DNA of 64,000 bases, taken from assembly GCF_037392515.1 (NCBI RefSeq), contig NC_090280.1:58274004-58338003 (forward strand). Direction: 5' to 3'. This document shows, in pieces, positions 18,210-56,035 of the stretch. Position numbers and translations under genes: made by a program. Origin of the DNA: Haliotis asinina. Taxonomy: Eukaryota; Mollusca; Gastropoda; Lepetellida; Haliotidae. Each line of letters opens with the position of its first letter. Within the stretch, counting starts at the first letter, position 1. The notes under the pieces were generated by a model. It worked only from the letters and a program-made list of their open reading frames with translations. It searched no databases and was not told the origin of the DNA.

Positions 18210-19340
18210 CGTCCTACGTCATTAATTCGAGTCATCTGATCTTCAGAGCAACATAAAAATAATAGTTTATAAAGGAAGACGGACGTTCACGCTAGCTTTA
18301 CTCGGAGATAACGGAATATTCGGCACATCAATGTTCGAACCAAGGGTGTTAATATTTCATAGGCCACTTTAACACAACCTGTCATTTCCTATTCTTAGAC
18401 CAACTCAAATTGTATCACTCTGTCGTTGACAGCATATTCTTTGGAACGATGACAAACTCAACAACCACGATAAACAAATGTCTATCAAGCACACCTAATG
18501 TGCCGTGCATGTACACACCGTGTGTTTGGACACAGTCTCGCTGGGTCACAGATCTCAGGGGTATTTACAAACTCGCTACCTGGCTGAAGTTGAAACAAAG
18601 CATTTAATCTTCCCTATTAAGTGAGGCAATCAAATAGAAGACTTTTCAAAGTAATTCGGGTCTTCAAGTGCAGGCTTATATCAACGGTAATTAATGTGTT
18701 TATGTGTCTAATAAAGGAGGTTTCGTGTTCTTACTGCATGTATATGGAGCTGTGGTACTAACTATAGCAGTAGGGTCTGGGAGTTAATTTTGGCAATAAT
18801 TGTACGAGAAAACTAGGCACCTAACTGTATCAGAATACTGAGCTTTCTATGGTGCCTATCTACACAAGAATATGGAATACGAAGTAATTTGTTGCGACAA
18901 CCGGAAAGCAAACTGGTATGTAGACTAAAGCTTACTCTCTGAATATATAATTATAATGCTATAAGCTGGAAATAAATTCTTTTTAACTGAAAAGAGCGGC
19001 AGTCTGATGGGAGATTCAGAAAATGAGGAAATCTAGACTTGCTTCATGTAGGGCTTTACCATTGCAGGGCTTTACCATTGCAGGTAGGGCTAGGCTGCAG
19101 GGAAAATAATGCAGTTTGGGGACTGTGATAGACTAACATCTAGTCACTGAAATTAACGTATTTTACAGGGGAAAACTGTTAATAGAATATAACCATAAAC
19201 ATAACGAAAAGGAGTCCATTTTCATAAACTGCGAAAATCTAGACGTGCCACATATTGTAGACTTGCATGGGAGTTCTTGGATATGTTTGTTTCAGGGTCT
19301 GTGTGACATACTAGGTCTGTGAGCCAGACTAGGTTACATG
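18210..19340. other. No supported gene
   Basis: Unique sequence. A small direct repeat (GGGCTTTACCATTGCA, twice) lies near 19053-19084. Confidence 0.5.
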
Positions 19341-19975
19341 TTATGACAGCCTGTACGAGAATGTGGAGTTAGCTGTTATGACAAAGTACAAGATAGCAAG
19401 ACATTATCTGTTATGACAGCCTGTACGAGAATGTGGAGTTAGCTGTTATGACAAAGTACAAGATAGCAAGACATTATCTGTTATGACAGCCTGTACGAGA
19501 ATGTGGAGTTAGCTGTTATGACAAAGTACAAGGTAGCAAGACATTATCTGTTATGACAGCCTGTACGAGAATGTGGAGTTAGCTGTTATGACAAAGTACA
19601 AGATAGCAAGACATTATCTGTTATGACTAACTGTACGAGAATGTGGAGTTAGCTGTTATGACAAAGTACAAGATAGCAAGACATTATCTGTTATGACAGC
19701 CTGTACGAGAATGTGGAGTTAGCTGTTATGACAAAGTACAAGATAGCAAGACATTATCTGTTATGACTAACTGTACGGGAATATGGAGTTAGCTGTTACG
19801 ACAAAGTATAAGATAACAAGACATTATCTGTTATGACTAACTGTACGAGAATATGGAGTTAGCTGTTATGACAAGGTATAAGATAACAGGAAGCTGTATG
19901 TTATTATTAACTGTACGAGACTACAGAGATAGCTGTTATGGCCAACTTCAATCGAATAGGAAGTTACATATTATG
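19341..19975. repeat. 70-bp minisatellite, nine copies with a decay gradient
   Basis: Copies start at 19341, 19411, 19481, 19551, 19621, 19691, 19761, 19831 and about 19901. The unit includes TTATGACAGCCTGTACGAGA and GCTGTTATGACAAAGTACAA. The first copies are nearly identical; the last three diverge steadily. Confidence 0.95.
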
Positions 19976-20827
19976 ACAAACTTACGAGAATACGGAGCTA
20001 TTTTAGATGACTAAATTGCACAATCATATTTGGTAAATGGACTGCATTTACGTGTTTGAGGGAGAACGGTTTAGACATATTTTATGACACTTCAAAAGAA
20101 TGTGGCACTACGCAAGCGACACAATGGATCAAACATCTTCGGCCTGTCCCAAAATAACTTGCTGGTTTTGTGATATAAACTAAACAATCATGACCCTCCC
20201 TCGATACCTGGCTTCCAATTTCAGTCACGGTCAGGGCATCATCGACTGGAATTGAAACTATATGCTTCTGTTAAAACAGGATTACCATTTTCCCGATATT
20301 TTTTACTTGAGAAAGATTGACACACAAACCATTCAGTCTTGTTTCATGTCACCAATCATACATATGTAGTCATAGCAGAGCACTTCAGTCGTAATTGGTG
20401 GAAGTAAACCGATGAACACTCGTCTTGTACCCAGAGCTCAGAGTTTATATGTTCGATATCCACAATCTAAAGCACGCCTGTGATACATTTACATGCAAAT
20501 ATATTTCAGGAAGCCATGGAATACTCAGGCAAGTGAAATGTTCCAGGACCATAGGGATGCATACAGAAATGATTGCTATGAACCTCCGATGGAATCGGAA
20601 GAGTGGTCGTGTGGTCGCCCTAGGTGAAAAAGACATAACATGACTTGACTCGTGACATTTGAAGTGTTGTCAAACCATCACGCCAGAATCCACGGAGTTT
20701 CACATCACACGTATTTTAAAATGACGCATCATAGCACATGACTGAATGCATGTACACTGTTCAGTCTGTGAATCTATACCAGTTATCTAAGACTGCAAAC
20801 AAAAAACAAAATCCATAAATCACAGCG
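19976..20827. other. Upstream flank of the GT31 gene
   Basis: Promoter and 5' UTR of the GT31 gene are expected here, but no element can be placed. Short frames at 20425-20643 lack domains. Confidence 0.35.
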
Positions 20828-21832
20828 ATGTTAAGATTTATGTACCATCACACCCGGCTACCAAGAGTCTGGGTAAGCCACGCTATCTTGCTTATTACAG
20901 GGAGTTTAATATTGTGCACCATTATTCTGAAATCCCCCTGTAGTTTCCTAAACCTGACCCGGTGCTGCTGTATTCAGCGAACCAGTCCGCCGTCCTCCAA
21001 AAACCTCTTCCGGAGGAACAACATCAGTGGCAACACTAACTTCATCCTCAACTCCGACCACTGTAGACACCGAGCACCTGTATGGATGGTCATTGGGGTC
21101 ATCTCTCGGGTAGATAACTTCCAACGACGTCATGCTATACGATACACTTGGGGTTCATCTGTCCATCGATCGAGAAGCAGAAATGTTTGTCTCGTATTCC
21201 TTGTTGGTTTGTGCCATTCGTCCATGCAGGAGATGCTGGAAACGGAGCACAAGAAATATGGTGACGTTGTTCAGATAAACACAGACGACTCTTATCAGAA
21301 CCTTGTATGGAAGAGCGTGGCCTTGTTAAAGTGGACGACAGAGTTTTGCACAAGCTTCAGTTTCTTGTTAAAAATCGACGATGACGTGTTTGTAAATTTG
21401 GCACAGCTCTTCAGAACGCTGGATATGTTTGAAACTGAGCCGAAATTTATCATGGGGCAGATAAACAGAGGTACTAAGCCAAAGAGGAGACCAAAGTCAA
21501 AATATTTCGTTTCAAGAAACGATTATCCTGACGACGTGTATCCACCATACGTCGCCGGTGCTGCTTACGTCATTTCCGGTTTACTGACACGTGAACTCCT
21601 GGAAGCGATACCGACTTCGCCGTTGGTGCACGTGGAGGATGTTTTCATCAATGGAATCTGTGCGCAGCGAGCAGGGGCTGTCCTTATTGGTGACTGCGGT
21701 TTTTCCACTCGACATGTTAACGTGGAGCATGTCCACTGGTACCCAAACCAGATAACATTTCATGGATATACACCCACTGGAATGAAAGAGCTATGGAGAA
21801 AAACAAGAGAAATCACTCCAATTTATCAGTAA
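20828..21832 (+). CDS. GT31 family beta-1,3-galactosyl/N-acetylglucosaminyltransferase, intact single exon (334 aa)
   Basis: Probable type II Golgi enzyme that adds galactose or GlcNAc in beta-1,3 linkage to glycoprotein or glycolipid acceptors. Visible features: a short basic cytoplasmic tail, one hydrophobic anchor (about residues 15-34), a stem with two N-glycosylation sequons (NLT at 42, NIS at 65), then a catalytic domain. The GT31 landmarks are in order: RRHAIRYTWG (100-109), a FLVGL strand (124-128), the metal-binding DDD in KIDDDVF (184-186), YPPYVAGAAYVIS (238-250) and the acidic EDVF motif (270-273). The length fits B3GALT/B3GNT enzymes, and many of these are encoded by one exon. 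The ATG is the first in frame before the anchor. There are no internal stops. Donor and acceptor specificity cannot be read from sequence, so no symbol is given. An upstream non-coding exon is possible but not seen. Confidence 0.93.
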   Translation: MLRFMYHHTRLPRVWVSHAILLITGSLILCTIILKSPCSFLNLTRCCCIQRTSPPSSKNLFRRNNISGNTNFILNSDHCRHRAPVWMVIGVISRVDNFQRRHAIRYTWGSSVHRSRSRNVCLVFLVGLCHSSMQEMLETEHKKYGDVVQINTDDSYQNLVWKSVALLKWTTEFCTSFSFLLKIDDDVFVNLAQLFRTLDMFETEPKFIMGQINRGTKPKRRPKSKYFVSRNDYPDDVYPPYVAGAAYVISGLLTRELLEAIPTSPLVHVEDVFINGICAQRAGAVLIGDCGFSTRHVNVEHVHWYPNQITFHGYTPTGMKELWRKTREITPIYQ

Positions 21833-31653: not shown

Positions 31654-31929
31654 GACAAAGGCATCTGACAATGATCCTGAGTCATACTAGCAGTAATGTC
31701 AAGCTGAACACTTTCAATCTGTGACAAAGGCATCTGACAATGATCCTGAGTCATACTAGCAGAAATGTCAAGCTGAACACTTTCAATCTGTGATAAAGGC
31801 ATCTGACCATGATCCTGGGTCATACTAGCAGAAATGTCAAGCTGAACACTTTCAATCTGTGACAAAGGCATCTGACAATGATCCTGTGTCATACTAGCAG
31901 AAATGTCAAGCTGAACACTTTCAGTCTGA
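31654..31929. repeat. 69-bp tandem repeat, four copies
   Basis: Starts at 31654, 31723, 31792 and 31861. The unit opens GACAAAGGCATCTGACAATG. The period equals 23 codons, so the minus strand stays open for 94 residues; this looks like a repeat effect, not a protein. Confidence 0.95.
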
Positions 31930-35008: not shown

Positions 35009-35529
35009 AACGTAGAATTAGTAACCTAGAGCCCTCTTCTGTGAGCAATATACTGATGTTGGGAAAGGAACGGACCATGGCTCATGTTGTACATTAGAAC
35101 GAAAACTGGCCCATTACAATTTGTCAGTTTACTATTGACACAAGGGCAGTGGCTCATTCAAAATTCAGCAAATGGCTAATAATCCTGAATCCAAACCCAT
35201 TGTCAAAGTTCTCTTTCCCAATCCCTGAATACGGACTTCATAGGTGGCAAATTATGAAAGTCCATTTCGTCCATGAGGGGAGCACTAACAAGTGGATAAC
35301 AGCAGTAAGATAACTAAAGCAAACAACAACACACATTTAAATGAACAATGGTTAAGATGATACTGAGTTCAGCTGCATGAAGAAGTATGCATAGTATAAT
35401 AGTAGTATAATAACTGAGATAAGCTGAAATGCAATGTCACAGAATACCACGGAACACCTAGAGGCCCTCCACTGTATGGATTCTGACAAGCACCATTTTA
35501 ATATATAATTAACACTGCGTGTCAGGCAG

Positions 35530-36300
35530 GATAAGAACAAGTATCATCTTTAAAGATCTGACATGCCGCATTAAGGTGATCATTAATTTATTATCAGCTT
35601 CAACAAGCACCAGGTTTAAAAATCTGGCATGCTACACTAAGGTGATCATTAATTTATTATCAGCTTCAACAAGCACCAGGTTTAAAAATCTGGCATGCTA
35701 CACTAAGGTGATCATTAATTTATTATCAGCTTCAACAAGCACCAGGTTTAAAAATCTGGCATGCTACACTAAGGTGATCATTAATTTATTATCAGCTTCA
35801 ACAAGCACCAGGTTTAAAAATCTGGCATGCTACACTAAGGTGATCATTAATTTATTATCAGCTTCAACAAGCACCAGGTTTAAAAATCTGGCATGCTACA
35901 CTAAGGTGATCATTAATTTTCATGCTTCTACATGGGCCATGTTCATGATGTTAAAAGATCTGGCATGCTGCGTTGAGGTAATCATTAATTATCAGTTTCG
36001 ACAAGCACCACCTTTAAAGACCTGACATACTGCTTTAAGGTGATAATTAATTATTGGCTTCAACAAGCGCCATGTTTAAAGATCTGGCATGCTGTGTTAA
36101 GGTGATCATTAATGATCAGTTTCAACAAGCACCGTCTTTAACAATGTTTAAAGATCTGACAATGTTTAAGGATTAAGGATCATTGCCTTCAACAAGTGCC
36201 ATGTTGAAAGATTAGACATACTGCGTTAACGTGATAATTAATTATTGCCTTCAACAAGCGCCATGTTTGGCATGCTGCGTTAAGGTGATCATTAATTATT
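35530..36300. repeat. 66-bp tandem repeat in TMEM47 intron 1, about 11-12 copies
   Basis: The central five copies (about 35570-35910) are identical at an exact 66-bp period; CATTAATTTATTATCAGCTT recurs at 35581 and 35647. Copies on the 3' side are diverged and shortened. The 22-codon period produces an open plus-strand frame with no recognisable domain. Confidence 0.95.
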
Positions 36301-37395: not shown

Positions 37396-37407
37396 AACTT
37401 GTTCAAT

Positions 37408-37655
37408 GCATCATGTCATAGAACCTGCTTAAAGACTACCACCATATGTGATTGTGGCTCAGTTTGTGCATCATGTCATAGAGCCTGCTTAAAGACTACC
37501 ACCATATGTGATTGTGGCTCAGTTTGTGCATCATGTCATAGAGCCTGCTTAAAGGCTACCACCGTATGTGATTGTGGCTCAGTTTGTGCATCATGTCATA
37601 GAGCCTGCTTAAAGGCTACCACCGTATGTGATTGTGGCTCAGTTTGTGCATCATT
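37408..37655. repeat. 60-bp tandem repeat in TMEM47 intron 1, four copies
   Basis: Exact 60-bp period (starts 37408, 37468, 37528, 37588, then 8 bp of a fifth). The first two and last two copies share paired substitutions (AAAGACTACC/ACCATA versus AAAGGCTACC/ACCGTA), suggesting stepwise duplication. The translated Cys-rich repeat is not supported as a protein. Confidence 0.95.
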
Positions 37656-43620: not shown

Positions 43621-44735
43621 GAAAGTAGACATGCTTACAATTTTTGTTCAAGTAATTGATTCACCTGCTACGCACCTTAACAGATGACTTAATTAATACA
43701 GGAAATTCAATATGAACGAAATAAAATTGCTGCCATCCACTTTTGTGGAAATCAGTTACCTGCCGTCTGTGCAATCTGACTATTAAAGTTACGTGTACAA
43801 GTAACAATATAAGTTACCTGCACTAGTAATAATATACCTGCCCTAGAGCAGACTGGACATAGCAAATTCATTTTCTGGTACAACAGCTGTGAATTAATCA
43901 ATTGGCATCAGGCACTCAAAGACATATCCATATGATACATCAGACCATGGAAACCATTGATTTGGGAATCAGATCCTGGAGTGGCAAAGGGAAGTGACTT
44001 TGTACAACAAAAAGGGCACCTCCATAGAATCTTTCCCTTTCCTAATCAGCTAATAGCTGACTAATGTTAACAGGCCCTATGAGAAACTGAGGATATATCT
44101 GGCACACATACAGCAAGTATTTCAACATATGGCTGCCAAACCAAATAACTTAGCTAAGGTAGGTCACTCTGCTCCCCATGTTTTGTTGAAAAATATGTTC
44201 TGGATAAATGCAGAAATATTTGTATGATTAATACATGTGGTGCGAATAGATGCAAGAACAATTTTACTTACAAAGCTGCATAATCATGATAACGATCTGC
44301 AGTGCCATGCTCTCTGTGTGTGAGAGAGCGCCCATGTGTGTACATGTGTGCACATGTGTATGCAAGCGTGCACATTGATGTAGTGTGTGAGTTCATGTGC
44401 ACAAGCTTATGTAAGGCCGTCATATAAAAATATTCTTGTTTCTCATTACTGCCTATGCACAAAACCTTTTTTTTATTTTTCGTCAAAAAGAAAATTGACA
44501 CAAACATCGAAGATACCTCAACCCTGAGGGACCAGTGAACAGCTTATTATTAAATATCTTTCTACATAATTTGACATTATGGTCCCAGCAGATTAAGCCA
44601 TGACCATCTACATCTATTTATTGATTTAGTCACCAGACAACACTAGTAGCCAACATCAAAGGCTCATTTCCTGCTTACTATTTCAAGTACTTTCAGTGCA
44701 AAAATATACGAGGACTACTACCCGTACGGTTTTAC

Positions 44736-44949
44736 CTTATAAGATCTTATAAGATTCTTATAAGAATCTTATAAGATTCTTATAAGAAGACGAATTCTTA
44801 TAAGATTCTTATAAGAAATAACTGGGAATAAGAAACTTATAAGAAATGAAAATGGTGTTTCTTATAAGAATCTTACTCATTTCTTAGCGACAAAAATTTC
44901 TTATAAGATTTTTTCATCTTTTTCTTACTTAGTATGAGAAACTTATAAG
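44736..44949. repeat. Left subterminal array of CTTATAAG palindromes
   Basis: Eleven perfect CTTATAAG copies occur in 214 bp. The outer ones are packed at 10-11 bp (spacers AT, ATT, AAT), the inner ones 24-42 bp apart. Each octamer is its own reverse complement and, with flanks, often extends to TTCTTATAAGAA. The array starts 15 bp from the left terminus. Known En/Spm elements have subterminal motif clusters bound by an element-encoded protein; that role here is inferred. Confidence 0.9.
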
Positions 44950-45670
44950 AAGTAAAATTTTCATTTTTTTACAAAATTTATTCTCTGATATCTACAACAA
45001 ACAAAATGTACATGGAACAGAACATGATCGACAAATTTGTTCTTCTAAAACTACATAATTGTAAAGGGTTTTGCAGTTACATTGAAGTCATAATCCTTTC
45101 AAAACATTTTGTGTAATTGATAAATATTACAATTACATTGGTTTAACATTAAATTGGTTGATGAAATGTCTAACACAATAATTGTGTTTGACTGACACTG
45201 TAAAATAACATCCAAAATAGTCATTCTTTACAAACTATTTCAATCATAATAGATTTATTGCCCTGAAAAACCAAAACAGAAATTACAGAGTACTGAAAAT
45301 AAAAGACAGTTTTTCCATTGTAGAACTCAAAGAAAACATTTAATGCCAAATTAAGTTGAACTTAAAAGGAACATTGTTAAAAATATTGTAAAACAGTAAA
45401 AATACATGCACATCCCAAAGTAGAACAATATGAATAACTGGATGGTATCATGAATATAATCCAGAATAAGATAGGCAATAAAAAACATGATTCAAGCACT
45501 ACCAACAATAATCCCAAACGCAAAAGAAAATTCAAACTTCATAGGTTTAAGATTCATAAATTGTAACTTGTACAATCATAACAGTTCTTGCAATGTTTGA
45601 AATGATTGACTTTTTATGAGATCGGAATCAAAACTTAAAGGTGGTGTATTAAAAATGATAAACTAAAACT
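44950..45670. other. Transposase 3' flank inside the element
   Basis: AT-rich sequence between the left palindrome array and the transposase stop codon. It holds no supported gene and no SINE. TTTATT on the plus strand near 45251 would be an AATAAA poly(A) signal for the minus-strand transposase, but other A/T runs make this uncertain. Confidence 0.4.
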
Positions 45671-48600
45671 TTAATCTTTTTCCAAAACATTTGGTACATT
45701 ACACAAAAAAGCAGAATCAGAATCATGAACTTTGACAAACACACACTTCCGTTTCAAAGCTTTCAGATTCACAGCAATTATTTTCTTGTCATTAGTGGAC
45801 TTCACTTCCTTGATGTAACTGACACCCATGTAGTTATCACTCACTTCTAAACACCTAATCATGGCTAAGTTTCTTGTCACACAGACACAACTGCTGAGAT
45901 CCTCACACCGACACACAGGTGAAACTTGCAGGAAAGTTTCTATTATGCCGTACATATGTGATGAATTACTTTCATAGAGCACAGTACAACTATTTCTCAG
46001 AAGTACACGCCTGTATGCCTCTGAGAAGTACACATCTCCATCAACTTTAACTCGCTTAAAAGTCACAAGCCTTTCAAAAGGACTTAACACGCTTTCCTTC
46101 ACAGCTTGAGCATACTCTGGTGACAACTGTTTTAGGAATTTTGTTGCTCCAATGAGATAAATGCCAGGATCTAACATAGTACCTTTGTATTTTGATTTGC
46201 TTTTCAGCCTACAATAGAGATCATATGCCACACTATTCTTCTCTATGGCAGGAATCAACTCAGGCATTTTCTGTATAACTGCAACGGCATGAGCTATCTG
46301 TTTATCAATATGCTGTGTTCCATTAAATAACTTCAACAAACAACCATTTGCATCTTCAAAGGGAAAGCATGAAAAGCACCACAAAGGACCTAAATTCAGA
46401 ACATTATCAGGCAAGTGCAGAAGCTGGTGTACATTAAGAGTCATCACTGATTCCCCATACATCACTGGAAACATTGCAACAAATCTAGCCAGCAGTATCT
46501 TGCTGTGGCGGATATCTGAAGGTTTAATGGAATCCTGCAATAGTAAGAAAATACTTTCTGATAAAAGCAAAAAATGTCTGTAGTACTCTGGCATAAGAAT
46601 ATCATGCATAATTGTTGGAGCATAAAATAACAACCAGTATTTCCATTCAGATGCCTTCCAGTAATCTGAGTCCATTAAAGATCTGGGCAATCTTGACATG
46701 TAGTTGGGAGGTTTTATTTGGAGCAGTCGTCTATTAACTTTATCTATGAAGCCAGCAACACTAAACACTTGACAATTATGCTTACTAGCAAACCACAGTG
46801 AATGCATAAGTTTAGTTACACCAAGAAGTACTCCATGCATATAATCAATGCCAGTTCCATGTACAAAACTGAAAAATGTGAGGTAGGAAAACCACGAGGG
46901 CCCTTTGATGCCATTTACTGGCACCTTTAATCGTACCGCATCAAGAGCATCTCTAGTCACTGAGTTGTCTGATCTAGCTGGTCCATCCAAACAATCCATG
47001 TTTGGAGGGAAGACTCTTGTATGGCCTTTTCCTACTTTAACAACCTTTCCTGTCTGAAGACACTTTACGCATGATGACTGTCCATTGTATTGATTCATGG
47101 CACAAACACATGCTCTAGCAGGAAGATCACAGGTGCTTGCTATCAGTATAGCTCTACACTCCACTTCTCCATCTGGTGTGCAAGCCACAAAGCCTTGTTC
47201 CAAACCTTTCAACGTTTTCATGAAAGGTGTCAGAAATCCTGTCATTGATGGTTTTTTGGCACCATACCAAATCCCAGCTAATACCATATTTTCTGGCATT
47301 CTCCTCTCTGCATAAGGCAGTTCATTTATCATTAAGTAAATTGGCCACAAACTGGTTTTGGAGCTTCTAAATGGTTTAGCACCATCTGTATTAAAAGTCA
47401 ATGTCAAATCATACACTGACTTCAGTATCCCATCGGCAACCAATTTCTTGTATTGTAAACCATCACAGATATCTTCAACTGTATCTTCATCTCTCTTGCG
47501 ACTTCTTGATTTATGTACTGAACTGGTGATGAACCCTGGGCGTTTGAACATAGATTGCAGTTGAGATTCTATTGGAATTTCAATGAAGCCAGACACACTT
47601 CCTTCTTCATTTAGTTTCTTGGAACATAGCGGATTCTGACATGTGTCCATTTCTATGGATGTTTCAATGCCAAGCAAACAAAATGAACAGTACTTATGGA
47701 AAATCAGTGGATGGTTAACATTGTGAAAATATTTCTTGAAAGAATAAAGTGTAGTTGGAAGACAGTGTCCTGCCGTACAGTGCAAAGCAAGCAGATGCAA
47801 CAACTCTGTTATCCCATCTGATGTTAGTGAATGTCTTGTTGCAAAGGCCAGAATCAGTAGTATGCTGACAGATAAAGTTATCTGTGCACCCTTGTAAATA
47901 TAACTATTGAAGTCAGACTCTACACCGAAATTCTCATCCTCACTGTTTGGGCAATCCTCTTCTGACAGTTCATCATCAATAATACCAAATCCATCACTTG
48001 AACACGTCGAATGAAAGCTGTCATCATTCTGTGGGATTTCTTGCATGTCATCATCATCACTGAAAAAATAAAGAACAGGATATGAATAGATTTTTGTATC
48101 TTCACTACATATCAGTTATCCCTCATGAACTGCAGGCATTAGGACGATAATCTTATTGGGTAAGTGATAGTTTTCTTCTTATAAATATGCTTCAGTGATG
48201 GAAATTGATGTTTTCAAATCGGTCCACTTCATCAATTTCTGGCTACATCATTATTGTTGCTGCATCACCTACCAATGACCAATGATGATGCTTTGATAGC
48301 AATCGTAATGTCATACCATTGTAAAGATGACACCATAAGTCATTTGTTATTTTTAACAGAGGACAGAGTGAATATTCAGTCTCTTTTGGCATAAATAAGA
48401 AAATGAAGAACCCAAGTAAATCGCATTTTTAAGTGAACAAGTGTGCTTTTAAGAAATATCAAGTTATATAGACTGAAATACAAAAATGAAATGAATTATT
48501 TTTTTTTCAGAATAGGTTGACTACTTCTCCTTTTTCTCAATAGCAGATTTCTCAAATTTCTTTGGACAAGTTGAAGATTGAAATAAAGTTTGAATTCACA

Positions 48601-49011
48601 CCTGTTGTACTTCATTTCCTGAAAATCCTGAATCTTGCTTGCAATTTCATCTGGCACATGTGACTGTTGTCCTGATGTGGAATTACTTTGCAACAGAGTT
48701 GCTTCTCCAATATCATCTTCAATGTCAGCTGAGTCAGCAGAATGACTACTTGTTGCATGGTAGCTAGGCTGATTCATATCATTATCTGCAGATGACTCGC
48801 CCTCATCTTCAAATAACCCTGATTCAGACCCTGTTTGCTGGCTCTTTGTGTTATCAACAGCATCAGGAGAGCTTGGCAAATGAGAAATAATCTTGTTGTA
48901 ACTTTCCATGAATGCTCTTTTGGAACTGGGTGGGACACCCTCTTTTCCAGTGTGCTCCTTGATATATCTTTTGTAAGACGTACTAACTCTCTTTCTTGGT
49001 GGGTCTGCCAT
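45671..49011 (-). CDS. TNP2-type (EnSpm/CACTA-like) transposase, two exons, 932 aa
   Basis: Likely the DDE-type recombinase of the surrounding element. Exon 1 is 49011-48602 and exon 2 is 48059-45671. The intron has a GT donor at 48601-48600 and an acceptor after a T-rich tract at 48065-48060, and the split codon restores the frame (phase 2). Residues 1-141 are hydrophilic and very acidic near 66-110 and 138-141. A zinc-ribbon-like C261-x2-C264...C277-x4-C282 follows. The TNP2 core has NTDGAKPF (first acidic residue D362), INELP and LAGIWYG, then STCDLPARA (D448) with C467-x2-C470, and GIDYMHGVLLGVTK (D542) as a candidate third site; E608 in SEWKYWLL is an alternative. A DUF4218-like stretch (VHQLLHLP...GPLW...FPFED) covers about 675-721. 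There are no stops or frameshifts. Starting at the internal ATG 48046 would lose 141 residues. Confidence 0.87.
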
Positions 49012-50221
49012 TTCAAGTGATGTTTCTGAAAATAATCAATGTAATTTATTCAACCTTTGAGAAACTGAAAATCAAACATGTTTTATTAAATTTGAATTTA
49101 ATGATTTTATTCCATATTTATTAATCACTAACAGACAGTAACTGAAAGAGTTATGCATGAAATCTAACTGCTTTGTGTCGATATGTATGCTACTTTTATC
49201 CATTAGTGATGAAAAAACAAACTGACACGATGACACTTCTGAAAATTGCTTAATTTCCGTTAGAATGTTTCATGTTTGTGGTCACCCTTAATGTGAATTA
49301 CTAATCATTTATGACAAATAAATTGAGCGTGTACTCGCGTGTGTAAATGACATTACGCATTTTGGTCATACTATTGAACTTGACTAGTTCAGCGAGCTAT
49401 GAGCATCGATGTATGCCTTGACTCAGGAACACGATGTTTTAGATAGCTGAACTATTCTAAACTTCAAAGAATTGTAATATTCAATAAAGTGAAAATCATA
49501 TCATAATTTAGAAATAAAATACCGTGATCTTGTTACCATACCATTACTCATTTGGGACTGTCTTTCTCTTTCATTTAAAAATTCCATATCCGTCGTGAAT
49601 CGTAAAATTCGGTAAAAGGACATCAAAATCTATCTATTATAACGCACAAATGCTTAAAACGAAGTATTGCTGCAATAAGACCAGTTAATTCAACAGCCTC
49701 TTACCTTTTTTGGGCTATTTTCTCTTGAAATCCAAAGTTGACCATTTACCAAATTGAATGACTCCCTTTCAGCTCCATTGGCGGGCGGCTTCCGTTTCAT
49801 TTAATACGCATGCGCCAAAATGGGAATTCCAAAATGGTTCCGGGGTCGGAATGCAACAGTTGATTTCTAAATTTAATCGTATTGGAGGGGTAGGAAAATA
49901 CTGAATTAAATATCGGTTTTGAAAAAAGAAAGATATAAAAAATATAACTGAATAATGAAACAACCAACCATTGAAGTTTGGTATTAACAAAAATAAACCA
50001 TAAGCCTTCCTGGTTCCGATTCCTGAACATTTCCGATTCCATATGTGGAAATAACCAATGTTTCCATTTGGCGGTATTTTTCATTTCACCATTGTCTACG
50101 ACCCCGCGAATTTCAACTACTCATCATTTACCATTCCCGATTCCAGTAATTTTCACGTCCTTTGTCAAACACTGAGCGATTTTGTTTCTTCGTGTACCAT
50201 TCTTGACTCCTGATTTTGAAA
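49012..50221. promoter_or_regulatory. Divergent intergenic region between transposase and BEN gene
   Basis: About 1.2 kb separates the two start codons, so both promoters must lie here if the gene models are complete. The right half is less AT-rich than the rest and holds clustered motifs: an inverted-repeat-rich stretch around 49785-49850 (GCGGGCGGCTTCCG, GGGAATTCC, GGTTCCGGGG) and several GATTCC-type repeats near 50015-50150. No CTTATAAG octamer was seen here. I cannot place a TATA box or start site with confidence. Confidence 0.45.
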
Positions 50222-53200
50222 ATGGCAAAGACGTTCGATCGCCGTGCTGTGAGAACATACCACTTCGATGAATGTAAGTATCGAGGAATAATTTAATTGC
50301 CTAAAAGTTTTTTTTCAGATAATGACCAAACACGTATCTTTGATATGACGAAAACACTATATGAAGACGATTCTGAGTATCTATTTCGCTAGTCGTCAAC
50401 AAACTTTGTAACACTTTTTGTCGAAATTTAAAATGTGACAATTTCGTGGGTGGCGATGATTCTTCATGTCCAATTCGAAGTTTGAACGTAAAATTACGTT
50501 TACCCTGCTGTCTCCAGTCCAGGGTATTTATATCCAGACGATTGCAGTTTGACATAACAAATAAAACCTTCCTAAAATGAGACTACAGTGACTGAGGGAC
50601 TATTTGATTTATCAGCTCCATGATGGCGTAATTTAATGCCAGTTGAATGCCCCGAGTTAATTCGATTTCAATGTGACACCAGTTCATCTTTAAACAGTTG
50701 TTAAATCTCAGTACAATGATTTGTTTTGGGATTAATTTCTCAACACTTATTAGGTAACAATTGCAGTTAGTCAGTTTCATATGATCAGACTGTTTTAATA
50801 ACTCAGATTTGCTTCAATAAATCTTAGATTTGATAATGATTGACTTAATCATGGTAATATGTTACTTATAAAGACACACAGACATATTATATACTGATGC
50901 ACCAGAGACTATTATAATTGGTCTAGTCTGTATAATTTCTAATATTGTCATTGGATTTTATTTGTTCAGATTTGAGTGACCGTGATACAGTGGTTTTAAA
51001 CCTGTTATTTCAATTTATTAAAGTGAAATGGGCTGTTGTGAGATACTTCGATGGCCAGCTGAGTGGAGTCCTGAAGGGAACAGAAGTGGAAGATGAAGAG
51101 ACAGGGTTGACTCTCCAAGAGGGCTACATGCAGGAAGGAGACTATTGCATGGCCAAGTGGCTTGACAAGAAAATGTACAAGGCCAAGATTCTCTTCATAG
51201 GATGTAAGTGTAATAATAAGAAACATTCATGATTGAAGTGAGAGTTTAAAGTTTGTAAGTCTGAGTTGTATTTTAAAGAGCAAGGTAACAACAACAGATT
51301 GGATCGATGAAACAGATTTTCACCTATGTTACATTTCATGATGTCTTTGAATGATACCATAAATAGAAGATACATCATGAATATCCGTATGTAATCATTA
51401 TGTAACAACTCGTCTGAAACACATAGCACTTAGGCTGGGTCTAGCCTTAGTCCATGCCCAGTAGAAGATTAGTCCATTAGTTCATTCACAACATATTTTG
51501 ATTTTCGATCACTATTTGAAAAGCATGATATTTAAAGAAGTGTTTCTTAGTTTGAAATATTTTAGAAATGGAAAATAAAAAGGAAAGAGATTATAGTTTC
51601 CAGTAGCTCCTTGGAGAGGTTACAAATTGTGAAGTTGACATTTGTTTTCCATGAAATCATTCCTGCATTGAAGTCAAATGTTTATCCTTTCAGCTGACAA
51701 AGAAGAAGCTGCAAAGCAGGCAACTCTGCTGAAGGTGGCCTATCCTGACAGGAAGCAGGAGAAGAAAGCAGATTCTGATAAGGAAGTAGAGACCAAAAAG
51801 AGAAAACTGGCCAACCCTAACAAAGCTACGGAACCTACAAAGGTATGCAATACTTTGAAAGAAGATAATCAAATAAAGAAGGAAAGAGGAATTGTTAATT
51901 GTAGGTTTCAGTTTAGTTAAAACCTAACATTGCTAAAACGATAATTGTTACTGTACACGTTCATGAAAAGGACTCTAAGAAAAATCAGCTCAACAAAACC
52001 CAAATGGGTATCTTGCATCACGAAGTCTAATTTGGATCTAATTGGGACTAGACATAAGAATGAATTTTGCCTAGAGTGACAGTGTGCATATAAAACCAAA
52101 GCAACTACAAGCGGTTACTTGATATAACTATCAATACTGACTAATGCTACTTAAACACTACTTATGGGCAGTTAACCAGTGATTGTGAAATTACAGAAAT
52201 TAATGTAATTTACTGACAATTATTTACAAGCTCTTTATGGGTAAGTGTATTAAAAATGACCAGGGCCTATGGGAATTGAAAACAATAGTTGGAACAACTG
52301 TTATAAAACAAATTAAAACTCACTTTACTTATCGCAAAATATGATTGACAGCAAGACTGTTTCAAGGTGAAGAATTCTTGACACTATAAAGAGATATCAT
52401 GATGTTTGTATGAAGTAATTCGAGTATTGTTTTATTGTTATATTGACTTAAGCTTTTATGGATATATTTAATTTTATTAAAAATAATATTTCAGAAAGCA
52501 CCTAAGATTTCGGAAACAGAAAAGAAGGCCCAGATAAGAGCCCATGAGAAGATGGTGGAGGAGCTCTTGGTGGTGCAGTACGGCCATGGAGACCAGGTAG
52601 AGGAGTTGACAAGGAGCCTAGAGGAGAAAGACGTCATTATCAAGGAGAAGGAGCAAATCATCAGGGAAAAGGAGCAGGTTATAAAGGACAAAGAGCAGCT
52701 ATTAAAGGACAAGGAAGAGGAACTTGCTGCCACGAAAGCTAGCCTGGCAAGACTGCAGGCAAGGACAGTTCAACCTTGTCCATGCAATGGTGATCTTGCA
52801 TCCTCTTTGATGTCAGAATCAGTGCAGAGATTTATTAATCAGCTGGCTGGATTATGTCCAGTTAATCCAGCCACCGAAACTCTGCCGCAGCCAAGTACCT
52901 CCCCATCAATTCCCCGAACACCTGCTTTCTCCCCTCCTACGCAATCTATGCTCATGTCTCCACCAGCGCCGCCGCCACCTTCCCCATCTTTATCACCTGT
53001 TTCACCTAGGACAAGTACTCTGCCATCACCCTCAACATGCGATGCTGATCTCGTTGACCTTGGCGGAGGGGTGATGCTAAAGAAAATTGTCCTGGACGCC
53101 TGCATTTCTTCTGCGAAGGGATCAACCTCCAAGCTCGTGAGAAATTTGCTTCATGCATTTTTTTCTGACCAGGAGCTTGGGGAATCCTCCGCAGAAGGGA

Positions 53201-53864
53201 AAGGGACGAAGGCTGCTTTGCCAACAAAGACAGTCGCAGCAATAAAAGGTAATTCTAATAGAGAACTTGAAAAATTGAACCAAACAAGTGTAAAAAAGCA
53301 TATGAAAATATAGAATTGAACATCTCTGTACATTTTTATACAATAGATAAGTATTGTGACTATCATTCAAGTAAAAACTAGATTCATGAAAGTATCTTGA
53401 GCAGTATGTTTCTGTGGAAATGTTGAATTGTGTGTAGGTGTTAAAGTGAGTAATGTTGTGGTTTTGGATTTCATGTAGTTAAATTTTGTTCATTATTCAA
53501 AATTCATATTTATTACTTGAATACATCAAACAATGATCCCTTTTCTCCACTCGGTTATTTATTAATTATTTATTTTAATCATGTACACATAGATAAAAAT
53601 CTTTTGTTAAACAATTCTAAATTTCAAGCTTCTTTTGAACTAGTTTTCAAATGAAATATTTTAACACTGGTGATATAAACATTGTCAAAATTGTACAACA
53701 TAATACAGATAAATTGAAATGATTTAATCAATCTTTTCATTACAGGGTTCGTGTTATCAAAGAGCCCGAGGACAACTGAACGAGAGCTAGTTCAGATTAT
53801 GAACTGCCAGTGTGCAGACTCAAGAAAGAAAATGAAAAATAGAGTGATCACTACAGACCTATAA
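50222..53864 (+). CDS. BEN-domain DNA-binding protein with coiled coil and Tudor/SH3-like N-terminus, five exons, 435 aa
   Basis: Exons are 50222-50273, 50970-51203, 51694-51842, 52495-53248 and 53746-53864, all GT-AG; the joined length is 1308 nt ending in TAA. Residues about 36-95 resemble a small Tudor/SH3-type barrel (KWAVVRYFDG ... YCMAKWLDKKMYKAKIL). Residues 96-160 are lysine-rich and nuclear-signal-like (TKKRK). A heptad-rich Glu/Lys coiled coil spans about 178-236, with repeated KEKEQ and KDKEQ blocks. Residues 271-324 are Pro/Ser-rich. A BEN domain fills 331-435 (LGGGVMLKKIVLDAC ... KLVRNLLHAFF ... ELGESS ... AIKGFVLSKSP). BEN domains bind DNA, often palindromes, and can act in chromatin repression. 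It is divergent to the transposase, with about 1.2 kb between starts. An in-frame alternative exon 2 acceptor at 51023 would drop 18 residues. Confidence 0.84.
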
Positions 53865-55553
53865 GAGTCGTTTTAAAAAAATGCAGGAATTCTTGTCCCT
53901 GCTCAGTTACATAAATATTTTTTCAAATTTATTGCACTCTTTCAGCCCAAGAAGAAAATTAAGGCATTATATTTGTATATCCATGTTTAATTGTGGACAA
54001 ATGTGTTTTGATTTCTTATTCGTAACAGTCCTTAAAAGGGCGAAAATTGAGCTGTTTTCATTGTCCCTCAGTCAGGGTGTTGTTTGTTTTTCATCTCTGT
54101 TGATACAAATTCACTAAATTAGTTAACTTCGGGGTCTGATTTCCTGTGTATTAGCTGTTTAGTTCACACACATAAGGATTGAAAGATGTTTGACTTCATA
54201 TTTTCTAAATTAAGACATGTTTTGTAGCTGTCCCTCAGATATTGTTCTTTCCCATAACGACTGTGTCAAATTTGAAATAATGTATGATCACTGATGCCAA
54301 CATACCCAAACTTCTGCATGCTCTTTGGCACTTCCTGTGTTCTCATGATGACAAAAGTTCCAGATGTTCTGTTGACTGAGAGTTGTGGGGAAAGGACTTA
54401 AAATATTAGGACTTTGGGCATGTACTTATTAAGTGTCTTTCCTGTAACAATACTGTTGCACTGACATGTACAGTATTGCAAAATTTTGTTTCCATGATAG
54501 CATCCGAACTGTGAAACATTTGAAACTTGAAAAGTCCAATTTTTATGAGGGGGCATTAATTTTCCTCATAATGTAATTTGTGTTGATGTACTACATTCCT
54601 ATAACGTTCTTTCCTGTAATGCTAAGAATGGTAACTGTGGAAAGAAAACTCAGACATTTAAACAGGAACTAGGTATAATATAAACTTGTATCTTAATATA
54701 TTATTAGTGTGAACCTGTCACACTTTTGGTTCAATATATTATTATGTTTATACAATGTGAAAAAGAGATGATAAGTTACATATTTGTCCTCAGACGATTA
54801 CAGCAGAGAATGGTAATTGTTGCAGGAAAGAATATATTTGTCACTGTGATTATCATGTTCAAGGTTTTACTAACATCTTACCCCATGTAGGAGTAATCAT
54901 TACACGAATATTATTCTCTAATGTATGTGTATGCAATTAACAGCATTTGCTGGATGTACAGACACTGAATGCAACCGTTACAGTAAAGAATTTATTCTGT
55001 TACTGTAAAGAACGCTTATGTTACCGTAGAGAAAAAACAGCAGTTCACAGAGAATTTTGGTATAAAATATGCATATGTCTTAATATGTTCTTAGGTGTAA
55101 GCCTGTGTAAACTCACACTTTTTGGTTCAGTATATTGATATTTATATAATGTGATAAATGGATTGTTAAGCACCTTTTTTTATCTTTCCTGTAACAGGCA
55201 TATCTTTCCCGACTAACAATATTTTTTTTGTATTTTTTCAAGGTTTTAAGTAGTGATATTGATTTAAAAATACTGTATCAAGAAGTATGAATGTTTTCAT
55301 TACCATTAATGTAAGAAAATGTTTTCTTGGGTGAGGTTTTGCTGAATTGTGATGTAATTAAAATTGAATAGTATTTCTAATGCCGTGCTGTTGATGTTTG
55401 TTGAATTATGCTTTTGCTTATGTGACCATAAATGTAAAACTCAGAGCTTTCTATTTCTAGAACCAGTGGGTTTCTTAATGGCCATCCCCATAAAAACTGC
55501 AAACGGTCATCAGCTGTAATTCTGGTTGGTACTTCGGTTCAGTATGTGAGAAT
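53865..55553. repeat. BEN gene 3' flank with a diverged ~390-bp-spaced internal duplication
   Basis: AT-rich non-coding sequence between the BEN stop and the right array. Two similar segments lie at about 54643-54775 and 55031-55165. Both contain a TCTTAATAT...AGTGTGAACCTGT / AGGTGTAAGCCTGT stretch, then CACACTTTTTGGTTCA and a TATAATGTGA block. GTTACTGTAAAG-like motifs also recur nearby. No further gene is supported here. Confidence 0.55.
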
Positions 55554-55827
55554 CTTATAAGAATCTTATAAGAACCAATAAGGTTTCTTATAAGATTTCT
55601 TATAAGATTCTTATAAGTATCCTCTAAGTTTCTTATAAGATTTATATAAGAATTGTATAAGAATCTTATAAGTTCTTATCTAATTTGCATACAAAATTCT
55701 TATAAGAATCTTATAAGAAACTTATAAGAATCTTATAAGAAACTTATAAGAATCTTATAAGAAACTTATAGGAATCTTATCAGAAACTTATAAGAATCTT
55801 ATAAGAATCTTATAAGAAACTTATAAG
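55554..55827. repeat. Right subterminal array of CTTATAAG palindromes
   Basis: Seventeen perfect CTTATAAG octamers plus two one-base variants (CTTATAGG and CTTATCAG, near 55765-55782) occur in 274 bp. From about 55698 to the end they repeat at an exact 11-bp period with spacers of mostly alternating AAT and AAA. The outer copy ends 15 bp from the right terminus, mirroring the left array. Each octamer contains a TATAA core, so chance promoter activity is possible. Confidence 0.9.
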
Positions 55828-56035
55828 AATATTTCATATGGGTACTGAGCACAACTGAGTTATTTTCATCTAATTAATCCAGATCAGCTCAATGTCACTT
55901 CAAGTCTATATTTCTATGCAAAAATATCATGAACATGACTTCCTATCAAAAGTTCTGTCAACAGATAATGTTGGATAGTAGTGCCCATAACACGTGAAGG
56001 TCCTGGTTAGAAGTTATTTTTAGTAACCCTTGTCT

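Follow-up and report, generated by a model that had tools for sequence, protein, structure and literature searches.

The window analyzed here, a 64,000-bp stretch of the genome of the abalone Haliotis asinina (NC_090280.1, positions 58,274,004 to 58,338,003 of the forward strand; C1:58274004-58338003), contains a complete transposon of 11,122 bp at window positions 44721 to 55842. The transposon encodes a TNP2-type transposase and, in divergent orientation, a protein with a BEN domain, and it carries arrays of an 8-bp palindrome, CTTATAAG, close to both ends. The first-pass annotation, made from the letters alone, had proposed such an 11.1-kb unit, and its interpretation is supported overall: the unit is a real transposon, a discrete mobile element with CCC/GGG ends, TA duplications, and two near-identical full-length copies in the genome. 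We propose, with a probability of about 0.6, that it is a recently mobile transposon of the CACTA/EnSpm (CMC) branch, whose BEN protein binds the CTTATAAG arrays and pairs the ends for the transposase. The genome that we searched comprises 1.143 Gb in 159 contigs. Genome searches scored the best candidates only, and all genome counts given below are lower bounds.

The boundaries of the element are defined by comparison with its other copies. Homology with these copies begins at the left terminus (CCCGTACGG..., 44721 to 44735, plus strand), the first 9 bases of which are identical in the copies at C11, C5:60.51M, and C15:31.53M and differ by one change each in a copy on C7 and in a 174-bp copy on C5. 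At the right terminus, which reads inward as CCCATATG... (55828 to 55842, minus strand), homology stops in the C11 and the 174-bp copies, and the same terminus is present at C4:54.18M. The sequence CCC starts at 44721, GGG finishes at 55842, and the dinucleotide TA lies directly outside both (44719 to 44720 and 55843 to 55844). TA is found on both sides of all three copies that have both ends (window, C11, and the 174-bp copy), and the eight left ends seen are preceded by TA in six cases, by AA in one, and by CA in one. Given the TA flanks of the two-ended copies and the flank tallies at single ends, the target-site duplication is likely to be 2 bp long, with a preference for TA. The annotation had described the termini as similar and adjacent to TA; the adjacency is correct, but the likeness is imperfect, amounting to CCC.TA.G over the first 8 bases. 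This is the only match between the ends outside the arrays, and there is no terminal inverted repeat of at least 10 bp.

Each array lies exactly 15 bp inside its terminus. The left subterminal array (44736 to 44949) contains 11 exact CTTATAAG palindromes, and the right one (55554 to 55827) contains 17, or 19 if up to one mismatch is allowed. These 28 exact palindromes are all that the 64-kb window contains, while a first-order Markov model of the window yielded 1.08 on average and at most 4 (100 runs). Start-to-start gaps between neighboring exact palindromes are 11 bp in 14 of 26 cases (4 of 10 in the left array and 10 of 16 in the right array) and 22 or 33 bp in 4 more. The mirror symmetry of the two arrays follows from the palindromic nature of the motif. 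The mirrored arrays of the first-pass annotation, as well as the two intact, divergent, spliced genes that it had placed between them, were thus confirmed, since both gene models have open frames on opposite strands and all five of their introns are GT..AG. Further arrays of CTTATAAG/TTATAA are located at C15:48876200-48877300 and C1:56968200-56969000, with no window-family end in the stretches examined.

A search with the 301 bp of the left end returned 44 matching stretches genome-wide, with many falling within the same arrays. The second full-length copy (C11:216098-227189, minus strand) starts and stops at the same bases as the window element and differs from it by 31 substitutions over 11,077 aligned bases and by eight indels of 1 to 31 bp. 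Neither of its genes has a stop: its transposase carries 2 synonymous and 2 nonsynonymous changes, its BEN gene 1 synonymous and 4 nonsynonymous changes, and its arrays hold 10 (left) and 17 (right) palindromes. P0001 (659 aa), an annotated H. asinina protein, departs from the window transposase at two residues; since the C11 copy shows the same two changes, P0001 is the transposase of that copy. Other copies are reduced or decayed. At C4:53.48M, both genes are present head to head with stops in each, and this copy is therefore old and probably dead, while the copy at C1:91.78M has an internal deletion that fused parts of both genes. The 174-bp copy, near 13.009 Mb of C5, consists of both ends (the left one reading CCT) and 10 palindromes between TA flanks; it fits the ends and arrays being the cis signal, but as a single copy it could also be an in-place deletion. 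The near-identity of the two intact copies implies recent movement, as the first-pass annotation had suggested, and its expectations of several copies with the same ends and gene pair and of a short target duplication were borne out as well. No empty site was found in this assembly, where each flank of the window insertion matches itself alone. These observations suggest a cut-and-paste DNA transposon that moved recently and is potentially autonomous. A candidate copy at C3:10.5M (72% over 585 columns) was dropped, as the pattern used gave no clean left end there. The region C6:36631791-36643233 contains several decayed, partly repeated pieces of the BEN gene and two right ends of the window family, with AT rather than TA after the right end.

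The transposase gene, on the minus strand, consists of two exons (48602 to 49011, followed by 45671 to 48059, which includes the stop) that encode 932 aa and are joined at a GT..AG intron. The second exon has Pfam matches to Transposase_21 (E 8.9e-8; 32 bits against a cut-off of 28.6) and DUF1258, and at E 0.1 Transposase_21 is matched by 47 of the 48 members of our alignment of relatives (A2, which includes the window protein). In the predicted structure, model residues 51 to 611 (46223 to 47905, minus strand) have the fold of a RAG1-like catalytic core and residues 630 to 787 (45695 to 46168, minus strand) that of a BAH domain. The motifs D362, D448, C(2)C at 467/470, H(3)H at 681/685, and E705 occur in this order, each of them invariant or at least 90% conserved, and are the putative catalytic residues. 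At E 0.1, the 48 aligned proteins match 14 Pfam families, and BAH is not one of them. The position of the BAH-like domain of this TNP2-type transposase aligns in its animal relatives too, and the domain is a possible chromatin reader. Named relatives of the transposase come from molluscs, a brachiopod, echinoderms, a hemichordate, a sea anemone, and insects. The transposase of the sea star Patiria miniata (P0003) is 61% identical to the window protein, versus 37 to 41% for a second abalone family described below, and may reflect either old sharing or horizontal transfer. A scan of IMG/VR with the transposase alignment gave 14 stretches that fit a pattern, none of which was confirmed.

The BEN gene, on the plus strand, has five exons (50222 to 50273, 51024 to 51203, 51694 to 51842, 52495 to 53248, and 53746 to 53864) and encodes 417 aa in an open frame. 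Its product begins with a conserved N-terminal domain, encoded by exon 2 and recognized by comparison with the genome copies and the second family. Exon 4 encodes a Glu/Lys-rich stretch, which by eye reads as a probable coiled coil, a Pro/Ser-rich linker, and the first part of the C-terminal BEN domain; exon 5 contains the end of that domain and the stop. BEN (PF10523) is the best Pfam match (E 9.7e-5), and the next family follows at E 0.35. A sequence search of the PDB with the protein returned three weak matches (E 0.15), all to unrelated proteins, which we disregarded. In the abalone genome, the protein matches 36 stretches.

To evaluate selection on the two genes, we compared 10 copies with the window element codon by codon, leaving out the copies at C6:36.636-36.638M, C9, C55, and C12 and excluding codons with gaps or stops; most of these copies are partial and have a shared history. 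Seven older copies retain enough BEN codons, and their ratios of nonsynonymous to synonymous change (dN/dS) are 0.28, 0.16, 0.29, 0.29, 0.21, 0.26, and 0.05, with third codon positions over-hit in all seven (P = 0.014 to 4.9e-6). For the transposase, four copies have enough codons and give dN/dS values of 0.36, 0.38, 0.33, and 0.25, the last three of which rest on few changes; third positions are over-hit here too, but less strongly than in the BEN gene (two copies, P = 0.025 and 0.082). Because dN/dS values are low and third positions are in excess in the older copies, we conclude that the BEN gene has traveled and been selected as part of the element, selection having retained it as the element moved.

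The pairing of the two genes recurs beyond the window family, as judged from sequence matches. At C13:55.63M, a transposase that is 37 to 41% identical to that of the window has, upstream and on the opposite strand, a divergent gene of six exons (324 aa), whose best Pfam match is BEN. Two introns of this gene share place and phase with introns of the window BEN gene (by eye), one after the N-terminal domain and the other inside the BEN domain. The ends of this second family (CCCTACC... and ...GTAAGGG) were set by comparison with the two end regions of a 99% identical copy at C4:19.17M, and the two elements are 10,158 and 10,262 bp long. Genome-wide, 57 transposase matches were joined into 42 loci, and the 36 BEN-like matches, together with 80 stretches matched by the second BEN-like protein, into 31 clusters (6-kb joining rule, which cuts the BEN gene of the C4:53.48M copy into two clusters). 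A BEN-like match lies within 10 kb of 15 of the 42 transposase loci, against 0.026 expected under uniform placement, and the arrangement is head to head in 14 of the 15 pairs, the odd one being the deleted C1:91.78M copy. The BEN matches are strong in eight pairs and limited to a single Lys/Glu-rich exon in seven (E 1.1e-5 to 4.9e-4); the pair at C20:0.70M is decayed to transposase pieces and one BEN exon. Some loci are near-duplicates of each other (C13:55.6M and C4:19.2M; C16 and C20; C17 and C4:41.6M), so the pairs do not represent 15 independent events. Truncated copies make up some of the unpaired transposase loci and BEN-like clusters.

Two additional sets of BEN-like matches were observed. 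Tandem-looking arrays of BEN-like genes with no transposase match nearby are located at C15:40560044-40609805 and C13:8162566-8177543; the array unit that we examined consists of separate BEN-like pieces, and the arrays are possible cases of amplified or domesticated BEN genes. At C9:66268899-66279745 and C55:47597-58443, both BEN proteins match within 11 kb at equal spacing. These two contigs look like duplicates, and the loci may represent a further family.

Because of its CCC...GGG ends, 2-bp duplication, and Transposase_21 protein, the transposon fits the TRC branch of animal CACTA/EnSpm elements, a class that is already known; the CCC core is present at both ends in the window and C11 copies. 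The target duplication of En/Spm is 3 bp. Membership in the plant-type En/Spm group was rejected, since the ends are CCC rather than CACTA and the duplication is TA rather than 3 bp. Like plant En/Spm with its TnpD and TnpA, the abalone element combines a TNP2-type transposase, a second protein, and subterminal repeat arrays; it differs in its CCC ends, its 2-bp duplication, and in having a BEN protein where En/Spm has TnpA. Moreover, the Spm proteins are described as products of alternative splicing (PMC1636069), whereas the abalone element has two divergent genes. The animal TRC elements treated in the same paper (SmTRC1 of Schistosoma and elements of Tribolium and Aedes) have in common with the abalone element the Transposase_21 protein, the CCC core, and the 2-bp duplication. 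SmTRC1 also has a second protein, short, rapidly evolving, and without detectable similarity to other TRC elements in that account (PMC1636069). The terminal inverted repeat given there is 54 bp, in contrast to the abalone element, in which an imperfect repeat of about 8 bp gives way to the palindrome arrays, and the paper makes no mention of BEN (0 occurrences).

The transposase also resembles those of more distant systems. The C(2)C and H(3-4)H motifs that mark the wider CMCT group are shared with the fungal relatives ESTA and Plavaka (PMC12730594), and the abalone motif set fits the CMCT pattern of that source, although we set it beside ESTA by description only. ESTA makes TA duplications and Plavaka duplications of 2 or 3 bp; some of these fungal relatives carry TET/JBP enzymes, and the word BEN has 0 occurrences in that source (PMC12730594). 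Sequence identity to RAG1/RAG2, ProtoRAG, and Transib is 7 to 14%, and where the partner of RAG1 is RAG2, that of the abalone transposase, with its BAH-like C terminus, would be the BEN protein. BEN proteins are also found in viruses. Bracovirus BEN genes are the subject of PMC4574769, and in animals, according to PMC6317261, BEN proteins are repressors, boundary factors, and host chromatin factors. The Drosophila BEN-solo protein Insensitive (Insv) shares with the abalone protein the combination of a coiled coil and a BEN domain. Its dimers bind an 8-bp palindrome, CCAATTGG, and assemble into higher multimers; it is, however, a host boundary factor, for which the available parts of that source draw no link to transposons (PMC6317261). 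The BEN domain of NAC1 likewise selects a palindrome, of 6 bp (PMC7764960).

Given these parallels, we hypothesize that the BEN protein acts in the role that TNPA has in maize, where transposition requires both TNPA and TNPD, and TNPD stabilizes TNPA on DNA (PMC1636069). The BEN protein would dimerize via its Glu/Lys-rich coiled coil, and the dimers would bind the CTTATAAG palindromes and coat the arrays; with many palindromes spaced 11 bp apart, neighboring dimers would face roughly the same side of the double helix. A BEN protein could coat such ends cooperatively, as each bears an 8-bp palindrome that often recurs at 11-bp intervals. Once coated, the two ends would be paired and handed to the transposase, which would cut at CCC/GGG and insert the element, duplicating 2 bp of the target. 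The shared divergent promoter region may also be regulated by the BEN protein, and the BAH-like domain may tether the complex to particular chromatin. A precedent for end recognition of this kind, which supports the proposed mechanism, comes from the Tn3-family transposase TnpA, in which contact with the inverted repeat is made by a BEN-like domain (DBD1) described as a key determinant of specificity (PMC9579193). Transposases with a BEN-like fold are thus known already; in Tn3 the domain lies within the bacterial transposase, while in abalone the BEN protein is separate.

Several observations weigh against this proposal. The palindromes could be bound by the transposase itself. The window BEN match, at 22.9 bits, is 0.3 bits under the Pfam gathering cut-off of 23.2, and neither the full BEN protein (none passed among the 7,987 candidates sharing most words) nor the BEN region alone (32 candidates, no matches) was matched in the protein database at the thresholds used; these misses are no evidence of absence, as multi-exon genes are probably poorly represented there. 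The right ends seen are followed by TA in only three of six cases and by AT in the other three. For the second family, the BEN match of the partner (E 0.021, profile positions 3 to 75 of 76) is also below the cut-off, and direct comparison of the BEN-like proteins of the two families is weak, with 1 of 500 shuffles as good for the BEN parts and 9 of 500 for the N-terminal parts. The flanks of the second family (TC/AT and AA/TA) show no evident duplication in either copy, and its end repeats comprise GAAGCGCCC and GGCGCCCC motifs (by eye) instead of simple CTTATAAG-like palindromes. Lastly, BEN-like matches are lacking within 10 kb of 27 of the 42 transposase loci. One transposase relative, at C8:4.78M, has an open frame of 715 aa and no BEN-like gene in the 9.8 kb upstream, as checked with both BEN proteins and with Pfam on five open reading frames (ORFs), one of which has a weak match to DDE_3 (E 0.0035, below cut-off).

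The function of the BEN protein could also lie in expression, in that it regulates or insulates promoters or counters silencing via the arrays while the transposase alone recognizes the ends of the same transposon. The roles of BEN proteins as repressors and boundary factors (PMC6317261), the report of accessory TET/JBP enzymes in some fungal transposons (PMC12730594), and the many transposase loci without a BEN-like neighbor are all compatible with such a role. However, the arrays sit at the outermost parts of the element on either side, well away from the divergent promoters, they are kept in the gene-less 174-bp derivative (the single copy that may be an in-place deletion), and a BEN-like fold reads transposon ends in Tn3 (PMC9579193). 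We consider an expression role unlikely, yet serious enough to be kept alongside end pairing.

Less probable in our view is that the element belongs to an ordinary EnSpm family that is already catalogued, for example in Repbase, and whose second ORF papers have simply left undiscussed. Relatives of CACTA elements that have CCC ends and duplicate 2 bp have been described in animals since 2006, SmTRC1 included with its second protein (PMC1636069), and relatives of the transposase are widespread in animals. Against this explanation, our search of the open full-text literature (subscription papers and Repbase being outside it) brought up no report of an animal transposon encoding a BEN protein. 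The suggestion of the first-pass annotation that the transposon is possibly undescribed therefore stands in part: as far as our search of that literature extends, the novelty lies in the pairing of the genes and in the palindromes at the ends, but the class, the CCC ends, and the 2-bp duplication are known (PMC1636069).

That the BEN gene is a captured host gene traveling as a passenger without a role in the element is highly improbable and was already disfavored: BEN proteins are host chromatin factors in animals (PMC6317261), and 16 of the 31 BEN-like clusters have no transposase match within 10 kb (one of them belonging to the C4:53.48M copy and others carrying window-family right ends), but selection on the gene in all seven copies analyzed, the distant second family with the same gene layout and introns, and the 14 head-to-head pairs contradict it.

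Elsewhere in the window, an ORF of 337 aa at 20819 to 21829 (plus strand) encodes a galactosyltransferase (Pfam Galactosyl_T, E 3.8e-46) and is an ordinary host gene. Minisatellites with units of 60 to 70 bp, one of which can also be read as 140 bp, occupy 19339 to 19991, 31654 to 31928, 35549 to 36141, and 37407 to 37654, and a PF06072 match on a tandem-repeat ORF (35513 to 36022) was taken as a repeat artifact.

Returning to end pairing by the BEN protein, we conjecture more tentatively, and with clearly less than even confidence, that the abalone families represent a widespread, unrecognized group of animal transposons with a two-part recombinase, in which a RAG1-fold, BAH-tailed TNP2 transposase works with a dedicated BEN protein that recognizes family-specific end repeats, the partner and the repeats diverging together. 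If true, such a recombinase would add a third independent solution to those of TnpD/TnpA and RAG1/RAG2, would parallel the BEN-like end-reading domain within the bacterial Tn3 transposase, and would be a possible source of lineage-specific BEN genes in animals. A BEN gene under selection inside mobile transposons, opposite a RAG1-fold transposase, provides a natural source of BEN factors, and the element is a system in which a binding site and the protein that binds it may form a linked pair. End recognition is directly testable with the two near-identical intact copies and the 174-bp derivative, and the presence of a BAH-like domain in a transposase suggests that transposition is directly connected with histone marks.

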